Part shown: piece by piece, positions 6,261-61,345 of the stretch
Layout of the letters: each line of letters starts with the position of its first letter
How positions within the stretch are numbered: position 1 is the stretch's first letter
DNA from: a virus
DNA: 64,000 nt
Direction: 5' to 3' (one strand)
Virus record (IMG/VR): IMGVR_UViG_3300046524_000229
Location: 43,135-107,134 of that record
The notes under the pieces: generated by a model
Told to the model about the DNA's origin: nothing
The model's input: the letters and a program-made list of their open reading frames with translations, nothing else
Database searches by the model: none
Made by a program: the position numbers and the translations under genes

Positions 6261-6306
6261 AAACGGCCTCTGTCTGTACGTCAGCCTTATACCAACAATG
6301 CCAGAA

Positions 6307-6818
6307 AAACTGGACAAACACAAAAACCCGCAAAGCCTTACCCAGCTTGGCTTTCAGAGCTTCGTGTCCAATTTGTCCAAAAAATAAAATGAAACTGGAC
6401 AACCGCAAACCTATGTCCAGCTTGGGTTTCAGAGGATTTGTCCAATTGTCCAGAAAAAATTTTCAACCATACCTCACTTTCTAATTGAGTCACACATCTT
6501 TTTACAAAACCCACAATACCTCTCTTATATATAAATATATTTTTTAAAAAGTTCAAATATTATATATATATAAGACCCCCGGATTCCTAGACACTGAGGG
6601 TAAACCCTATGTTTTTATTTTCTAGTAAATTTATTGTGAAAAAGGAAGTGAGGTATGGTTGAGAAAAAAAACTGGACAATTGGACAAATCGTCTAGAACT
6701 CAAGCCCGATAAGGCTTTGCGGCTGTCCAATAGTGCAAAGTGAAATTGGACAAATTGGACACGTAGCCAGCAAACCCAATACCAGTAAGGCTTTCAGAGA
6801 TTTGGGATTTGTCCAGTT
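6307..6818. repeat. ~510-bp imperfect palindrome with GTCC boxes (candidate origin, centromere or control region)
   Basis: Eleven copies of TTGTCC/GGACA(A) lie in two mirror-image arms: left at 6312, 6365, 6373, 6397, 6414, 6438, 6446; right at 6674, 6682, 6724, 6748, 6757, 6809. Mirror pairs sum to 13125-13126, so the dyad centre is at ~6562. A 17-base block (TCAACCATACCTCACTT, 6463-6479) is repeated inverted at 6646-6662. The centre is AT-rich (TATATATATATAAG). The left arm and centre recur as a direct repeat at 63689-64000. No ORF explains the region. The form resembles replication origins, partition sites or multi-operator regions; the role is inferred. Confidence 0.85.
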
Positions 6819-6828
6819 TTTTCAAAGC

Positions 6829-27639: not shown

Positions 27640-28053
27640 TTACTTCGATTCCGGCTTCTTGTCCCAGCCTTCCGGCAGCTTGGACTCGTCGATTTTCAGC
27701 AGATCCTTGTTTTCGACACTGCGTTCGTACACCATGCCGACAAGAATACCGAGCGGAACGAAGTTGTTCGTTGCCAGGCCGTACGCTTTGGCTTTATTGA
27801 TTTCAGAAATACGACTTTTGGAAGATGCTTCCTGACGACGAGCCGCCTGAATCATTTTGACGCGATCTTCGATGGCACAATTGGCCTCGTTCAGAAGCTT
27901 CATCACTTCCTGTGCAGCCGATTGTGCAGCTTCCTTCTTCTGCTTCGTTTGCAGCTCTTCGAGAGCGTCTTTCAGGTCGATGCTCAGACCGCCGAAGTCT
28001 TCGACTTCCTTGCTGAATTGCGAATCCGCCAAACGAATGATAGCGTTGCTCAT
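27640..28053 (-). CDS. Hypothetical helical protein, 137 aa
   Basis: Ala/Gln/Lys-rich long helices (ALEELQTKQKKEAAQSAAQE, then an EVMKLLNEANCAIE segment) suggest a coiled coil. Located between an HNH gene and a structured RNA. Unrecognised. Confidence 0.6.
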   Translation of the reverse strand: MSNAIIRLADSQFSKEVEDFGGLSIDLKDALEELQTKQKKEAAQSAAQEVMKLLNEANCAIEDRVKMIQAARRQEASSKSRISEINKAKAYGLATNNFVPLGILVGMVYERSVENKDLLKIDESKLPEGWDKKPESK

Positions 28054-28075: not shown

Positions 28076-28600
28076 CTACTTGGTTGTGTTTAACTGCTCA
28101 TGCACTTCTCGATGACAATTTGAACAAAGCAAATCACATTTATCTAATTCTCTCTTCAAAATATCATCTAATTTTCTATACCATTGTTTGGCAATTCCAA
28201 AATCTTTCTCTTTAGGATCTCTGTGGTGAAACTCTAAGGCAGCATGAGATTTATTGTATCCACACAGTTGGCATTTACCGCCTTTATATTCAACTGCCGA
28301 ACTTTTAGTATTTACTCTTATTTCCTTTAAGTGATTTGAAATACAACTTTTACACGAAGTTCTATATCGTTCTGTATTTTTTATTTTTTGAAATTCCGTA
28401 ATAGGAAATTCAAGTTTGCAAGTAGAGCATCTTCTCCAATCAGGTTTCCCTTCAACTTTTAAATATGAAAAAGTCGATGTTTTAAGATCGTGTTTATAAA
28501 GATGGTATCTGATACTAGATTGGCTAACTCCAAAATGGGCCGCGATTTTTCTAGTTGACCATCCTTCTTTAGTCATCTGTTCAAGTTCTTGTTTTGTCAT
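28076..28600 (-). CDS. HNH endonuclease with N-terminal HTH
   Basis: N-terminal HTH (GWSTRKIAAHFGVSQSSIRY, residues ~13-32), a CSTCKLEFP...CKSC zinc knuckle, then the HNH module CQLCGYNKSHAALEFHHRDP and CDLLCSNCHREVHEQL. Closely related in plan to the gene at 38183-38728. AT-rich codon use unlike its neighbours indicates a mobile origin. Directly downstream of the 300-nt structured RNA. Confidence 0.85.
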   Translation of the reverse strand: MTKQELEQMTKEGWSTRKIAAHFGVSQSSIRYHLYKHDLKTSTFSYLKVEGKPDWRRCSTCKLEFPITEFQKIKNTERYRTSCKSCISNHLKEIRVNTKSSAVEYKGGKCQLCGYNKSHAALEFHHRDPKEKDFGIAKQWYRKLDDILKRELDKCDLLCSNCHREVHEQLNTTK

Positions 28601-28654
28601 TATTAACTCATTAAGCTTTTTAATTATTTTAGCTTACTGAGTTAGACATTTCAA

Positions 28655-28954
28655 GCGTTGAGTTCCTCTAAATGCTTCGCTAGTGTTAATTCACCTGTCT
28701 CTCGACCTTTCGATCAAGTACTCACATTTCATTCCGTTATCCAGAATGGAAGGTCCACAGTAGCCCTTCAATAGGAAACCCGTACTGGACTACGGGGGTT
28801 CTGCGTTTTATTTTCGGTGGTCCAAACACCTAGTCGGGTAACGTTCCGACGCGTTTATCCTAAACCCCGGCACGACGTGCAGGATTAGGGGATGCCTTCG
28901 TATCAGAGTAGGCTACTGTAAAACACACCTTCTCGCAAAGTGTGAACTCAACGC
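28655..28954 (-). ncRNA. Ornate ~300-nt structured RNA closed by an 11-bp stem
   Basis: GCGTTGAGTTC (28954-28944) pairs perfectly with GAACTCAACGC (28665-28655), enclosing the whole element. Inside, ACAGTAGCC (28919-28911) pairs with GGCTACTGT (28765-28757), enclosing smaller hairpins: ATCCT...AGGAT with GCAC-GTC-GTGC, GTCGG...CCGAC, CCCGTA...TACGGG. Outside that, CACAC...GTGTG, CATTC...GAATG and a GATC-GAAA-GGTC tip. No ORF fits. It follows the His-rich secreted protein gene and could be co-transcribed. No known class recognised. Confidence 0.7.
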
Positions 28955-28968
28955 AGACGGTTGAGGTG

Positions 28969-29247
28969 TTACTTACCCTTCACGGCAGAAGCGCCGCTAG
29001 CAGGCTTTGCTGCAGAAACATGACCGACCGGCACGATAACCGGGGTCTTGGCTACGGGAGCCTTTGCGACGGGTGCCTCGTGAGCAACCGGAGCAGTGTG
29101 GGCTTCAACAACTGCGGTGTGAACCGAAGGTGCCGAGTGAGCTGAAACGGAAACATGACCAGCAGAAGCGTGGCCACCGGAAACGCCATAAGCCATAGCG
29201 GACGTTGCGATAACCATTGCAGCAGCAGCGAGCATCAGTTTTTTCAT
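28969..29247 (-). CDS. Secreted Ala/His/Val-rich low-complexity protein, 92 aa
   Basis: Signal peptide KKLMLAAAAMVIATSAMA with cleavage before YGVSGG. The mature part is built from repeats of HAS/HSAP/HTAP and VAKAPVAK, with about ten His residues. Probably periplasmic or envelope-associated; metal binding is possible but not shown. First gene after the promoter at 29330. Confidence 0.7.
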   Translation of the reverse strand: MKKLMLAAAAMVIATSAMAYGVSGGHASAGHVSVSAHSAPSVHTAVVEAHTAPVAHEAPVAKAPVAKTPVIVPVGHVSAAKPASGASAVKGK

Positions 29248-29321: not shown

Positions 29322-29330
29322 CTTATACCA
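29322..29330 (-). promoter_or_regulatory. Extended -10 promoter
   Basis: - strand TGGTATAAG; the initial transcript can fold AGGAAG...CTTCCT followed by TTTTT. Confidence 0.7.
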
Positions 29331-29359
29331 AGTCGTACGTACGTAATTGAATTACAGGC

Positions 29360-29728
29360 TTACAAACAGCGGTCAATGACTCGGGCGATCTTCTTGAAGC
29401 TGAGTTGGTCAGTGTCGTTCAACGTAGAAAGCTTAGTTTCTTTCCCACGATACGTGACTTTGACATCGGTCGGTACATCAGCCGAGTCCAAAACAGAAGG
29501 ATTGAGTCCAGCCCATTCAGCTACCGCCAGGGGAAGCAAGCCACTAGCGCCCATATATTCGTCTGGCCAGGGTTCTTTCGCCGCAACTTCAGGATGTTCC
29601 TGAGCATGGATGTTGCATAGAACGCCGAGGCAACAGAAACCTTCGTCGTCACGCAACGCACCCGTAGTCTGTTTGTAATCACCGCCGCGCAGTGCCTTGA
29701 TCCATTTGTTCTTGATACGCTTTTTCAT
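29360..29728 (-). CDS. CCLGVLCD-family paralogue 1, 122 aa
   Basis: Member of a common phage family of unknown function: N-terminal W-x-x-A-L-R-x-G-[DE]-Y-x-Q, then GFCCLGVLCNIHAQE and a C-terminal LSTLNDTDQLSFKKIARVID. The most divergent of six tandem copies. Overlaps the next copy by 4 bases. Confidence 0.75.
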   Translation of the reverse strand: MKKRIKNKWIKALRGGDYKQTTGALRDDEGFCCLGVLCNIHAQEHPEVAAKEPWPDEYMGASGLLPLAVAEWAGLNPSVLDSADVPTDVKVTYRGKETKLSTLNDTDQLSFKKIARVIDRCL

Positions 29729-30081
29729 AGTTGTGCTTCGATGAGATCAGCTAGTTGGTTGAAAGAAAATTGCTTGATGTCGTTAAGAACAGAAATATGA
29801 GTTCTCCATTCTTTTGGATAAGCCAGCGAAGCTGGTTGACGCATGTACGGGTTGTTTTCTTCCAAACCCGCCCACTCTTTTACATGATCAGGTAATTCTC
29901 CCGCGATGCTTTCAAACGATTGCTCGCAGTTTAGTTCCTTGTCATGCAAATCACAGAGAACACCAAGACAGCAAAACTTGGGATCTATACCTTCATAAAC
30001 AGTTTTGAGTCTGGTTAAACCCTGTTTGTATTCACCGCTCCGAAGAGCGGCTACCCATTTGGCTTTGACTTCGTTGTTCAC
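29725..30081 (-). CDS. CCLGVLCD-family paralogue 2, 118 aa
   Basis: KWVAALRSGEYKQG start, FCCLGVLCDLHDKE middle, HISVLNDIKQFSFNQLADLI end. Tandem duplicate; overlaps both neighbours by 4 bases. Confidence 0.75.
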   Translation of the reverse strand: MNNEVKAKWVAALRSGEYKQGLTRLKTVYEGIDPKFCCLGVLCDLHDKELNCEQSFESIAGELPDHVKEWAGLEENNPYMRQPASLAYPKEWRTHISVLNDIKQFSFNQLADLIEAQL

Positions 30082-30434
30082 AGTGCGTATTGAATGATGT
30101 CAGCGATTTGAGAAAATGGCAGACCCGAGTCGTTTAGATCTACAAGCGAAACAGAGTCAGTAGTCGGAGTCTCTACGCCAGTGTATCCGAGGTCACTTCC
30201 AAGCTCAGACCATTCTCTAACTTCAATAGGAGGAACGGAATAACCATTGAGCATATGCTTTTCCGGACCTCTTTCTTCTCTGTCAACCCATTCAACTCCG
30301 GTTTCTTTGCCATACAGGTCACAAAGAACGCCTAGGCAACAGAACCCACTAGGACCATTCAGAAATGCATGGCCTTGTTTATACTCTCCGCTGCGAAGCG
30401 CAGCTACCCACTTGGCTTTGATTTCTTGGTTCAT
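30078..30434 (-). CDS. CCLGVLCD-family paralogue 3, 118 aa
   Basis: The first 17 residues are identical to those of copies 4 and 5 (EIKAKWVAALRSGEY) while the centres diverge, consistent with recent duplication and variable middles. CCLGVLCDLYGKE present. Confidence 0.75.
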   Translation of the reverse strand: MNQEIKAKWVAALRSGEYKQGHAFLNGPSGFCCLGVLCDLYGKETGVEWVDREERGPEKHMLNGYSVPPIEVREWSELGSDLGYTGVETPTTDSVSLVDLNDSGLPFSQIADIIQYAL

Positions 30435-30790
30435 AGTGCGAATTGAATCACGTCAGCGATTTGGTTAAAAGTGAATCCGGAATCGTTAAGAACTGTGAGT
30501 TCCTCAGTTATTCCATCGCGGTTTTTAATATCATTGAGGTATCCGGTTCTGGAGGGAAAACCGGACCAGTCCTGGACTTGGGTAGGAGGAGTACCGATTC
30601 TGTCCAGAAAGATAAACTCTGGCTTGTTATCCTTTTCAGGAACCCATTCAGTTTCAGTATCCTTGGCGTAAATATCGCAGAGGACTCCGAGACAGCAGAA
30701 TCCCTCGTCATTACGCAAGCAATTTTTGGTTTGAGCATACTCACCGCTGCGAAGCGCAGCTACCCACTTGGCTTTGATTTCTTGGTTCAT
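30431..30790 (-). CDS. CCLGVLCD-family paralogue 4, 119 aa
   Basis: Same ends as copies 3 and 5; centre FCCLGVLCDIYAKDTETEW, C-terminus LTVLNDSGFTFNQIADVIQF. Confidence 0.75.
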   Translation of the reverse strand: MNQEIKAKWVAALRSGEYAQTKNCLRNDEGFCCLGVLCDIYAKDTETEWVPEKDNKPEFIFLDRIGTPPTQVQDWSGFPSRTGYLNDIKNRDGITEELTVLNDSGFTFNQIADVIQFAL

Positions 30791-31143
30791 TAGAAGAAGT
30801 ACTCGATAACGTCAGCGATTTGAGAAAAGGTGAATTCACCGGAGTCGTTCAGGCTTACCAAGCCTTCCCCATCCCCTTCTCTGGTAAGCAAACCAGGAAC
30901 GAGAGAAGTTTCTGCGAATTCAGCCCAATTAAGAGTTACTTGAGGGGGATACCCCCCACAGCGTTCAACCTCTTGAATCCCAGAGCCAGCATGTTCCCAT
31001 TGCGGACCTCCTTCCTTTGCGTGAACATCGGAAAGGACTCCGAGGCAACAGAACCCATCGTCTCTTTTCAAGTAGCCGACGCTCTGTTTGTACTCACCGC
31101 TGCGAAGCGCAGCTACCCACTTTGCTTTGATTTCTTGGTTCAT
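30790..31143 (-). CDS. CCLGVLCD-family paralogue 5, 117 aa
   Basis: Identical N-terminus to copies 3 and 4; centre FCCLGVLSDVHAKEGG, where Ser replaces the Cys of the CD pair. Confidence 0.75.
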   Translation of the reverse strand: MNQEIKAKWVAALRSGEYKQSVGYLKRDDGFCCLGVLSDVHAKEGGPQWEHAGSGIQEVERCGGYPPQVTLNWAEFAETSLVPGLLTREGDGEGLVSLNDSGEFTFSQIADVIEYFF

Positions 31144-31556
31144 AGCGTGAATTGAATAACGTCAGCAATCTGGTTGAAGGTAAGCCCACCGTCGTTGAGT
31201 TCGGCCAAAGAATACCCCAAGTAGCCAGGGGTATCTTCAAAGGACTTTGTAAATCCCTGGTAAATTCCAGTATTGGGATTTTCCTTGTCGAGATCGGCCC
31301 ATTTCATAACACTAGCAGGAGGTACAACTTCTGACCCTTCAAATGTACCAATGGAAGTATACTTTTGCAAAACCCTGCTATCTTCCTCCTTAGCGGTTCT
31401 CGGCACCCATTCACCTTCTCCAGTTTTCTTCATGTAAAGATCACAGAGAACGCCAAGACAACACATGCCGCCGTCACCGTTCAAGACATGTTTGGCTTGT
31501 TTGTATTCGCCGCTACGCAGAGCAGAGATCCATTCCTGTTTGATTTCGTTGTTCAT
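31140..31556 (-). CDS. CCLGVLCD-family paralogue 6, 138 aa
   Basis: Start at ATG 31556, overlapping the 33-aa ORF upstream. EWISALRSGEYKQAKHVLNG, MCCLGVLCDLYMKKTGEGEW, LTFNQIADVIQFTL. Longest copy, with an insertion in the middle. Confidence 0.75.
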   Translation of the reverse strand: MNNEIKQEWISALRSGEYKQAKHVLNGDGGMCCLGVLCDLYMKKTGEGEWVPRTAKEEDSRVLQKYTSIGTFEGSEVVPPASVMKWADLDKENPNTGIYQGFTKSFEDTPGYLGYSLAELNDGGLTFNQIADVIQFTL

Positions 31557-31654
31557 TTCGTTACTCCGAGTTTTGCTGTTAGTAGAACGCAGGTGAATCC
31601 AACTACGACACACATGACGTAGCCTGCGAATTTAAGGGTATTACGGCGACGCAT
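31553..31654 (-). CDS. Tiny membrane protein, 33 aa
   Basis: ATG 31654 to TGA 31553, ATGA overlap with paralogue 6. One transmembrane helix (YVMCVVVGFTCVLLTA) after a basic start (MRRRNTLKF). First ORF after the promoter at 31719. Confidence 0.5.
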   Translation of the reverse strand: MRRRNTLKFAGYVMCVVVGFTCVLLTAKLGVTK

Positions 31655-39440: not shown

Positions 39441-39516
39441 TGGTAGGAACATCGGGGCTCGAACCCGAGACCTTCAGATTTAGAATCCGCTGCTCTGCCA
39501 ACTGAGCTATATTCCC
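39441..39516 (-). tRNA. tRNA with CTA anticodon (amber suppressor type), CCA encoded
   Basis: Acceptor GGGAATA/TGTTCCT (one G-U at each end), D arm TAGCTCAGTTGGCAGAGC, anticodon arm GCGGA-TTCTAAA-TCTGA (27-43 G-A mismatch), T arm CTCGG-GTTCGAG-CCCCG region canonical, discriminator A then CCA. With the standard 7-base loop the anticodon is CTA, reading UAG. A shifted 5-base loop is possible but unusual. Confidence 0.72.
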
Positions 39517-59010: not shown

Positions 59011-60714
59011 TTACGCTCTCATCTTCATCAACATATCATTCACAGCTTGCTGCGTAATGCCAGGCTTCACTTCTTTTACCTGACCCCAGTTAAAACCAAT
59101 TTCACCTTCCACGCCAATCGGAAGGTCCAGCCAATCGAAATGCTCTACGGGCCATTCGTTCATGTAATAGAACGCTGTCTCGATCACTTCTGCTGCACGT
59201 TCAATCGGTACTTCGAATTCTACCGAATCATACACGGTACAGATACTCTTACAACGTGGATCGATCTTTTGAATCGCCTGGTCCAAATGTGCAAACGTTA
59301 CAAGACCAAGCGTAGACGTTGCACTTTGAATACGAACGTTTTGTGCATTGCGCAGCGATGCGTTATATGCTGCGGTACGCTTGAACGCAGGCTGAGCAAC
59401 ATACTCGTGCTTGTACTGACCAAACGGAGTCCATACTTTCTGGTTCAACAGTGCCATCTGATGCGATTCTTCAATGTAGTCTTTAACGCCGGGATAAGCG
59501 TTGAAGTACATATTGACCAGTCGCTCTGCCTCACTCTTTTCTAACTGCAACTGCATTGCAATACCATTCACTGACGAGCCATATAAAATTGAAAAAGTTA
59601 AAACTTTTGCAACTTGTCGCATACGCTTGTACTCTTTCTTCAGAGGATGCGAATCATCTTCCAGGATATGGATATAGTCTTCGTACGGCACACCCATCAT
59701 CGCACTTGCCGAAAATGAATGGAAATCCAAACCTTCAGCAATTGCACGAAGCATATTCTTGTCTTTACAGATAGCTCCTAAGATTTTTACTTCTGCTGAC
59801 GAGAAATCAAAAGCGATGAACACATTACCGTTAGCAACAGTGTAGCACTCTCGGACATTATAACCATGCTTTGGACGGGGAAGCTGAGTTAAATTGGGTG
59901 AATCTGCGGTTATTCTAAAACTGCTAGTGCCAAACATGTTGTAACTAGGATGAATACGTCCATCCGTACGAACGAAATCTTCTACATACGTTTTAATAAA
60001 AGTATTATGGACGCTATTGATATCTTTTCGTTTAGCCATATCAGCTAAAAACTGTTTTTCAGGATCCGGGGCTGTATATTGATTAGCTAACGGATTCAAT
60101 CCAGCCAACGTCAAAAGCGCAGCACCATCAGTTGCGTCATCGCCAGACTTAGTCTTGAACGGTGCTTCAAGTCCTAGTTCACCATAAAGATACTGAGACA
60201 CTTCAACGCCAGAGTCTAGATTGATTCGCTTACCAATTGCACTGAAAATCTTCTCATCAAACTCTGCTACTTCCTGGACCATCTGCTGCGAGATTGCCCG
60301 GTTCCTAGCTATATCATAAAGCATCCCATTAATTTCGAGATTAATAATGAACTCATGACAAAGCATTTCCGTCTCTAGAACGGACTTGATAATACCAGGT
60401 GCTGTTATTTTCTTAGGTTGCCCATTTTTCTGAGGCATCAATAACTCTTGTGGCTTTACTAAAGCAGGCCACAATGCAGTAAGAACTTCTGAAGTTACTA
60501 TATTATCAATTCCTGCATACAACATCAAATCAGAATAGTTAAAGTCTTCATATGTACGGTAGATTTTCTTCTCTTCAGAAATCTCAACTACCGTCGGTTC
60601 TTTCTTCTTTCGAGCCTTTTTACTAGCCGGGGCTTCTACAGCTTTTTCGACAACCTTGTCTCCTAGTACTTCTGCGATAGGTTTTTTGGATTTAGGTACA
60701 ATACGTTTAATCAT
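59011..60714 (-). CDS. DNA polymerase A, C-terminal fragment (Exo III motif + polymerase domain)
   Basis: Begins with a ~45-residue basic tail (SKKARKKKEP), then YEDFNYSDLMLYAGIDNIVT, the Exo III motif (Y-x3-D) of family A 3'-5' exonuclease, then thumb and the polymerase motifs: A VFIAFDFSSAEVKILG, B RQVAKVLTFSILYGSS, C CTVYDSVEFEVP. Complete palm/fingers, 567 aa. The missing part of the exonuclease is on the gene at 61329-62582. Start ATG overlaps the stop of the inserted HNH-type gene (ATGATTAA). Confidence 0.93.
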   Translation of the reverse strand: MIKRIVPKSKKPIAEVLGDKVVEKAVEAPASKKARKKKEPTVVEISEEKKIYRTYEDFNYSDLMLYAGIDNIVTSEVLTALWPALVKPQELLMPQKNGQPKKITAPGIIKSVLETEMLCHEFIINLEINGMLYDIARNRAISQQMVQEVAEFDEKIFSAIGKRINLDSGVEVSQYLYGELGLEAPFKTKSGDDATDGAALLTLAGLNPLANQYTAPDPEKQFLADMAKRKDINSVHNTFIKTYVEDFVRTDGRIHPSYNMFGTSSFRITADSPNLTQLPRPKHGYNVRECYTVANGNVFIAFDFSSAEVKILGAICKDKNMLRAIAEGLDFHSFSASAMMGVPYEDYIHILEDDSHPLKKEYKRMRQVAKVLTFSILYGSSVNGIAMQLQLEKSEAERLVNMYFNAYPGVKDYIEESHQMALLNQKVWTPFGQYKHEYVAQPAFKRTAAYNASLRNAQNVRIQSATSTLGLVTFAHLDQAIQKIDPRCKSICTVYDSVEFEVPIERAAEVIETAFYYMNEWPVEHFDWLDLPIGVEGEIGFNWGQVKEVKPGITQQAVNDMLMKMRA

Positions 60715-61345
60715 ATTTCTTACGATAATTAATTGTGGATAAGGCTTTTTCTAAAGGCCAGTTATTTTTCAAACGAGTATGTAGAGTTGTAACTGAAATG
60801 CCTAATTTTTCAGCCCACTGTAATTGTGTCATGGTTTCGTTTTTGAAAGTGATAATTTTCGTAGAACGTCTGTTATTACTTTGTTCTTTATTATCGGACC
60901 ATTTACAATTAGCTTTACAATAATTACCATTTACATCTATACGATCTATGGAAAGTCCCTCTGGCCTTTCTCCCATATCTTTTAGAAATGCTTCAAATGA
61001 TTTCCACCGTTCATCTACGGATATACCCCTTCCACCGTAGTTTGGATAATTATCTTGAGCCTCATCCGTACAGCGAGCCCACATACTTATCCAAGTTTTA
61101 TACGTCTTGGTTTTACTTAGTCCATGCGTCTGACTTCTGATAACAGTTAATTCTTTAGCCAAACAGCCACAAGAGTTACTATCTCCACCTCTAAGTGAAG
61201 CTCCTGATATAGATTTAATATTTCCACAACTGCATTTACAAATCCAAAAAGGCCGTTTAGAAACTCGTTCGACGTCTATACCTGTAACGGTTAACCTACC
61301 AAAGACTTTACTTGTTAAGTCGATGTATCTACTTTTCATCTTCAA
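60707..61345 (-). CDS. HNH-type homing endonuclease splitting DNA polymerase A
   Basis: FGRLTVTGIDVERVSKRPFW, a CKCSCGN...SCGC zinc cluster, then LSIDRIDVNGNYCKANCKWS with EQSNNRR (a common phage HNH/AP2-associated motif) and a C-terminal HTH (TQLQWAEKLGISVTTLHTRL). Overlaps the upstream fragment by 17 bases and the downstream fragment by 8. AT-rich like other mobile genes here. Probably the agent that split the polymerase. Confidence 0.8.
   Translation of the reverse strand: MKMKSRYIDLTSKVFGRLTVTGIDVERVSKRPFWICKCSCGNIKSISGASLRGGDSNSCGCLAKELTVIRSQTHGLSKTKTYKTWISMWARCTDEAQDNYPNYGGRGISVDERWKSFEAFLKDMGERPEGLSIDRIDVNGNYCKANCKWSDNKEQSNNRRSTKIITFKNETMTQLQWAEKLGISVTTLHTRLKNNWPLEKALSTINYRKKYD

Follow-up and report, generated by a model that had tools for sequence, protein, structure and literature searches.

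In this study, we propose that positions 28655-28954 of the window (the whole 64,000-nt stretch of DNA analysed, corresponding to positions 43135-107134 of a 107,134-base virus record) encode on the minus strand a 300-nt structured RNA, as supported by its folding z-score, covariance-model matches and covariation in relatives. We consider it somewhat probable that this element is an undescribed modular non-coding RNA of a phage, which acts as a folded molecule and presumably in trans. Comparison with related phages shows its strand, helices, conservation and modularity, as far as sequences can reveal them, and a function in trans as a folded RNA is what we infer.

According to this proposal, the RNA of a tailed phage is kept by selection and would be made together with the gene of a His-rich protein, probably from a promoter-like site at 29331. 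Helix P1 would close the whole RNA, while helix P2 would hold two variable hairpins (a and b) and two invariant ones (c and d), the loops of the latter kissing within the P2 domain via UGGAC and GUCCA. A separate 60-nt 3' module, consisting of helix P3 with hairpins f and g, would constitute the other half. The folded RNA would act in trans during infection, either by itself or in complex with a protein of phage or host, and not as an mRNA leader. Such a function is favoured because the RNA outlives changes of its neighbours (an adjacent HNH endonuclease gene is absent in the relatives L191 and L189, and the His-rich gene is absent in L189) and because the 3' module is found beside a tRNA gene in another phage.

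Strand and helices of the RNA

The 300 nt are closed by a perfect 11-bp inverted repeat (28655-28665 / 28944-28954), in which a perfect 9-bp stem (28757-28765 / 28911-28919) is nested. Both stems had been noted in the first-pass annotation and are present beyond chance: a perfect stem of at least 11 bp occurs in 18 of 3000 dinucleotide-preserving shuffles of the 300 nt, and its combination with a nested perfect stem of at least 9 bp in none of the 3000. The folding z-score is -2.95 for the plus strand and -4.16 for the minus strand, on which no shuffle folds equally well. The longest open frame within 28655-28954 spans 47 codons from stop to stop. The annotation had further described smaller hairpins with GNRA-like tips. 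Indeed, at least six smaller hairpins are found inside the 300 nt, but only two tips on the minus strand are true GNRA tetraloops (GCGA and GAAA); the other hairpin loops count 3, 5, 6, 7 or 8 nt.

The same annotation had read the plus strand, which has to be revised. Read on the minus strand, the substitutions seen in relatives preserve G-U pairs, and they would be A-C mismatches if the plus strand were read. Because promoter-like motifs and the flanking genes used for orientation, all of them on the minus strand, point in the same direction, we take the RNA to be transcribed as the minus strand, from 28954 to 28655 (RNA position p equals 28955 minus the window coordinate). All elements described below are located on this strand.

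P1 is formed by the 5' strand GCGUUGAGUUC (28944-28954) and the 3' strand GAACUCAACGC (28655-28665), which pair perfectly over 11 bp; between the window and L191, one pair is double-changed and two further pairs are altered in a single strand. The adjacent hairpin H5 (28925-28943; ACACUUU-GCGA-GAAGGUGU) carries the GCGA tetraloop. Its stem reads ACAC/GUGU in the window versus ACGC/GCGU in L191, i.e., pairing is kept with one pair double-changed. The 5' strand of P2 (ACAGUAGCCU, 28910-28919), which pairs with the 3' strand at 28757-28766, is identical in L191, and L189 may form a different yet paired helix at this place (AAGGG/CCCUU). Enclosed by P2, the variable hairpin a (28857-28893) differs in sequence in L191 with the hairpin retained, and shows one-sided changes in the close relative L002 with pairing retained. 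In hairpin b (28833-28850), three of the five pairs are double-changed among the copies; compared by hand, the stem is GUCGG/CCGAC in the window, GUCAC/GUGAC in L191 and GUUGG/CCAAC in L189, all fully paired. Hairpins c (28816-28830; GGUG-UUUGGAC-CACC) and d (28779-28796; CCCGUA-GUCCAG-UACGGG), on the other hand, are invariant in all core-bearing copies. Between their loops (UUUGGAC and GUCCAG) five Watson-Crick pairs are possible, UGGAC with GUCCA. Kissing of both loops is likely because they are invariant and complementary, and because the related phage L187, which is devoid of hairpin c, keeps the stem of d and not its loop.

The remaining part of the RNA comprises hairpin e (28730-28748; CAUUCUG-GAUAA-CGGAAUG), the pairs of which are invariant, and the 60-nt 3' module (28670-28729), in which P3 (AAAUG/CAUUU) surrounds hairpins f and g and the strand CAGGUGAAUUAACACUAGCGAAG. 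Hairpin f (28701-28718) has 7 bp and the GAAA tetraloop, with six of the seven pairs double-changed in L289, a contig of another phage group; hairpin g (28682-28695; GGUG-AAUUAA-CACU) is invariant in both phage groups. The single-stranded linkers of the RNA are invariant as well. Two further pairings were rejected. Kissing between loops b and e (CGUUA/UAACG) is suggested by the window sequence yet lost in L191, and the long-range pairing of RNA positions 15-28 with 275-280 and 201-206 in the minimum free energy fold is disfavoured, since L191 supports the local hairpin H5.

Conservation and modular composition

A 137-aa protein encoded downstream led to L002, the RNA of which is nearly identical to that of the window, and a full-length covariance model was built from these two sequences. 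The loci scanned with this model were fetched via the alignment of a neighbouring tandem gene family and via the HNH protein. L191 yielded a full-length match (213.7 bits) at the syntenic place, with about 110 extra nucleotides, and L188, L189 and L190 yielded core-only matches (55.3 bits), likewise at the syntenic place. L189 equals L190 over the 12.4 kb compared, and L188 has one different base in the 400-nt RNA region. In L187, which belongs to the same lineage, the flanks are kept and the RNA core is absent; its syntenic site carries a simple hairpin (CCCCGUA-CUAACC-UACGGGG) with the stem of hairpin d and a loop changed to CUAACC. Consequently, this phage group can do without the RNA.

No second copy was found in the records of the window, L002, L191, L188-L190 or L187. 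When the core pattern was searched over 2.9 million viral contigs, only contigs of these relatives and one unrelated sequence matched. Over 84,980 genomes the c-core pattern gave 19 matches, none with significant support from model R1; several represent one recurring Legionella sequence, and the matches are likely due to chance. When the RNA was compared by BLAST with 50,697 phage and 72,556 plasmid records, no match exceeded chance. A short A-rich pattern, GAAAATAAAACGCAG, proved too common to serve in such searches. Only a few distinct versions of the RNA are thus known, all of a single phage lineage apart from the module found in a second one.

In the model-fitted alignment (A9), which favours the structure built from the window since it was fitted to it, 98.7% of the cells are paired and 17 pairs are double-changed; on each of five measures, all 500 shuffles stay below the alignment. 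Controls in which the structure was slid along the same alignment gave at most five double-changed pairs. The comparative covariation proposed as a check by the first-pass annotation is positive: compensatory changes that keep pairs, the hallmark used here for a structured RNA, amount to these 17 pairs and to 10 pairs in the comparison of the 3' module described below, with 0 of 500 shuffles in each case. The individual folds of the L189 RNA (z -0.73) and the L289 module (z -1.27) are no better than those of many shuffles.

Between the window and L191, 195 of 204 nucleotides are identical over RNA positions 36-61 and 123-300 (95.6%), versus 36-64% identity at the third codon positions of four neighbouring genes. 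Inside this conserved frame hairpins a and b differ strongly and still pair. A recent transfer would have carried both hairpins along, and selection on the folded RNA is therefore the better reading of this pattern.

The extra 110 nt or so of L191 are inserted between H5 and P2 and are closed by GCGAC...GUCGC around small hairpins. L189 has a partly similar extra domain (GCGAU...GUCGC), whereas the 3' half of the RNA is absent there. The RNA of the window, without this domain, could be a shortened form. A search with a 3'-half pattern retrieved L288 and L289, tRNA-bearing contigs of another phage group, in which the 60-nt module is located directly 3' of a tRNA-Ser gene (L289:2170-2229 and L288:13957-14016) and aligns without gaps. 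All 16 pairs are kept between the module of the window and that of this group and 10 of them are double-changed (0 of 500 shuffles). Core and 3' module are thus present together in the window, L002 and L191, and apart in L189 (core) and L289 (module), from which we conclude that the RNA is built of modules that can be combined or separate. With the module model, neither 41 whole records nor loci totalling about 1.6 million bases gave a further credible copy. Three candidates were discarded: the weak matches of G020 and G033 to model R3 resembled protein-coding sequence in an AT-rich phage, and L287 fits the 3'-module pattern at the end of a gene and without model support. Separately, the 5' part of the RNA in L189 (L189:6440-6650) contains the T-arm-like hairpins GGUG-UUCGAAU-CACC and GCCGG-UUCGAUU-CUGGC and no complete tRNA.

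Neighbouring genes and alternative explanations

The neighbours are those given in the first-pass annotation. Upstream and in the same direction, the gene of the His-rich 92-aa protein with a signal-like N-terminus (28969-29247) has a homologue in L191. It is preceded by the ten-base motif TTGGTATAAG (29322-29331), of which the window has 11 exact copies, every one on the minus strand (at 6295, 16648, 18550, 24682, 29331, 31720, 33663, 38180, 46148, 55911 and 63661), with about 0.1 expected by chance. The motif is found at the same place in L002, L191, L189 and L187 and is a probable phage promoter. Further upstream (29360-31613, minus strand), a tandem array of six paralogues, which are related to PHROG 18067 (unknown function), varies between relatives.

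Downstream of the RNA, a homing-type endonuclease gene (28076-28600) encodes a protein with an N-terminal HTH domain and matches to the HNH families of PHROG (PHROG 2255 type). It represents a separate insertion 3' of the RNA, beginning right after CAACGCTT. The start of the insertion (28604-28654) contains a promoter-like site (TTGAAA-17-TAAAAT) and, between this site and the start codon, an inverted repeat (TAACTCAGTAAGCT / AGCTTAATGAGTTA, 28631-28644/28604-28617), which is perhaps an operator for the HTH domain of the HNH protein. The next minus-strand gene (27640-28053; MSNAIIRLADSQ...) encodes the MSNAII protein. In L191 and L189 an N-terminal stretch precedes this protein in frame, which has been replaced by the HNH insertion in the window. 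The window and L002 agree almost completely over the RNA, the HNH gene and the first half of the MSNAII gene; within this last gene the identity then falls sharply, and we regard this drop as a recombination edge.

Relatives of the HNH protein adjoin tRNA genes in Klebsiella phages Muenster and phiKp_21, Xanthomonas phage XbC2 and Listeria phage LPML1, and in L191 and L189, where the RNA is present, this locus lacks an HNH gene. We therefore consider that the HNH gene, which is of the homing type, inserted next to a conserved RNA gene and does not belong to the RNA. It is similar to the free-standing HNH homing endonucleases of phage tRNA clusters, but the neighbouring RNA gene is not a tRNA. 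The link between the RNA and a mobile HNH gene that their adjacency had suggested does not find support in these relatives.

The main alternative is a cis-acting leader, similar to a riboswitch or attenuator, in which folding of the RNA would switch the downstream gene, and several features would suit it. The RNA is always situated in the same intergenic place and the downstream gene order is conserved. In addition, the 3' strand of P1 in L191 and L189 (CAACGCUUAAG) can pair either with the 5' strand of the RNA itself (UUAAACG) or with CUUAAACGUUG, which immediately precedes the ribosome-binding site of the next gene. Nevertheless, we deem such a leader unlikely: the window and L002 keep the RNA even though both this second partner and the N-terminal stretch have been lost there to the HNH insertion; L187 retains the leader hairpin without the RNA core; and the 3' module in L288 and L289 has a different context.

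It is more doubtful still that the copy in the window is a decaying remnant, deprived of its downstream partner and of an extra domain measuring about 110 nt. The presence of the extra domain between H5 and P2 in L191, together with short matching end bases, fits a deletion. The high identity of the remaining segments to L191 compared to the neighbouring third codon positions argues against decay, as does P1 of the window, a perfect 11-bp helix with a 5' strand located elsewhere than in L191.

We find very little reason to regard the RNA and the HNH protein as one mobile unit, either intron-like or nuclease-guide-like, even if they are adjacent in the window and L002 with identical HNH genes. 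Not only do L191 and L189 have the RNA without the HNH gene, but no credible relative of the RNA was found beside 57 other HNH relatives fetched, there is no Rfam match to group I, HEARO or similar, and the syntenic site of L187 has no interrupted gene. A DNA-level element such as a palindromic recombination or replication site, in which long inverted repeats are also found (the window has one at 6305-6821), is the least credible explanation, given the strand-asymmetric folding, the G-U pairs kept among the changed pairs and the invariance of the single-stranded linkers.

Relation to known RNA classes

The description of an ornate structured RNA outside the known classes, already given in the first-pass annotation, holds against the 4227 families of Rfam 15, none of which matches the RNA at gathering level or above chance at E-values up to 10. 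In the whole window Rfam 15 detects tRNAs only, and in the 1.4-kb neighbourhood nothing credible at E-values up to 10. The GOLLD and ROOL models do not match the RNA of the window, L189 or L191 at gathering level or at E-values up to 10, and the OLE, raiA and HEARO/OMEGA models do not match that of the window; models of raiA and HEARO are present in Rfam. HEARO/OMEGA was discarded also since the association with a nuclease is not constant: an HNH gene is adjacent in the window, where it is a phage HTH-HNH, but absent beside the copies of L191 and L189. Likewise, the group I intron model gives no match up to an E-value of 10 (window, L189, L191), and the syntenic L187 locus is intergenic, without an interrupted gene. 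Neither ARAGORN nor Rfam reports a tRNA or tmRNA at 28655-28954. In the case of drum RNA, a short motif (UAG-hairpin-CGAAA-nAAA-CGC) resembles the region of hairpin c, but the window and L191 give no match, and the match of L189 (13.4 bits, E-value 6.1) is taken as chance in view of the gathering score of 43 bits.

Nearest in kind are GOLLD and ROOL. GOLLD is a large structured non-coding RNA of phages and prophages without known function, which has a conserved and a variable part, sometimes includes tRNAs or lies near tRNA genes and often exceeds 800 nt (PMC12286853). ROOL is a phage and prophage RNA, often near tRNA islands, with kissing loops and no known function; the ROOL solved counts 659 nt, and both RNAs form cages (PMC12286853). 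The RNA in the window shares with GOLLD that it is a structured phage RNA, yet it measures about 300 nt (about 400-460 in L191). As it is shorter than both and matches no Rfam model, we do not assign it to either class.

More tentatively, the RNA may represent the first of a new class of modular RNAs in phages. These would combine a kissing-loop core with an exchangeable 60-nt module and would work in infection as machines made of RNA alone or of RNA and protein, possibly assembling into oligomers as GOLLD and ROOL do. Like tRNA genes, they would be invaded by homing endonucleases. Phages carry a few large, elaborate RNAs of unknown job, and this family adds one without a counterpart in Rfam. 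At about 300 nt it is small enough for probing and structure solution. The related phages L189 (with core) and L187 (without core) provide a natural presence/absence pair, while the 60-nt module, common to another phage and beside a tRNA gene there, offers a minimal testable piece. Judging from the setting, a homing endonuclease may also flag a conserved RNA gene that is not a tRNA gene.

Elsewhere in the window, a near-palindrome of about 500 bp (6305-6821) consists of TTGTCCAATT / AATTGGACAA repeats and folds with a z-score of about -14 on both strands. The 107-kb record carries further copies at its two ends, and each of the six relatives has homologues; the near-palindrome looks like a DNA element for replication or packaging. 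A tRNA with a CTA anticodon (39441-39516, minus strand), called Pyl by ARAGORN, is a possible amber suppressor, and TAG may therefore be read through in some phage genes. Finally, the DNA polymerase is split over two genes with an ORF in between (59011-62582, minus strand); in Salmonella phage Arash and Vibrio phage D69, the corresponding pieces appear to be separated as well.
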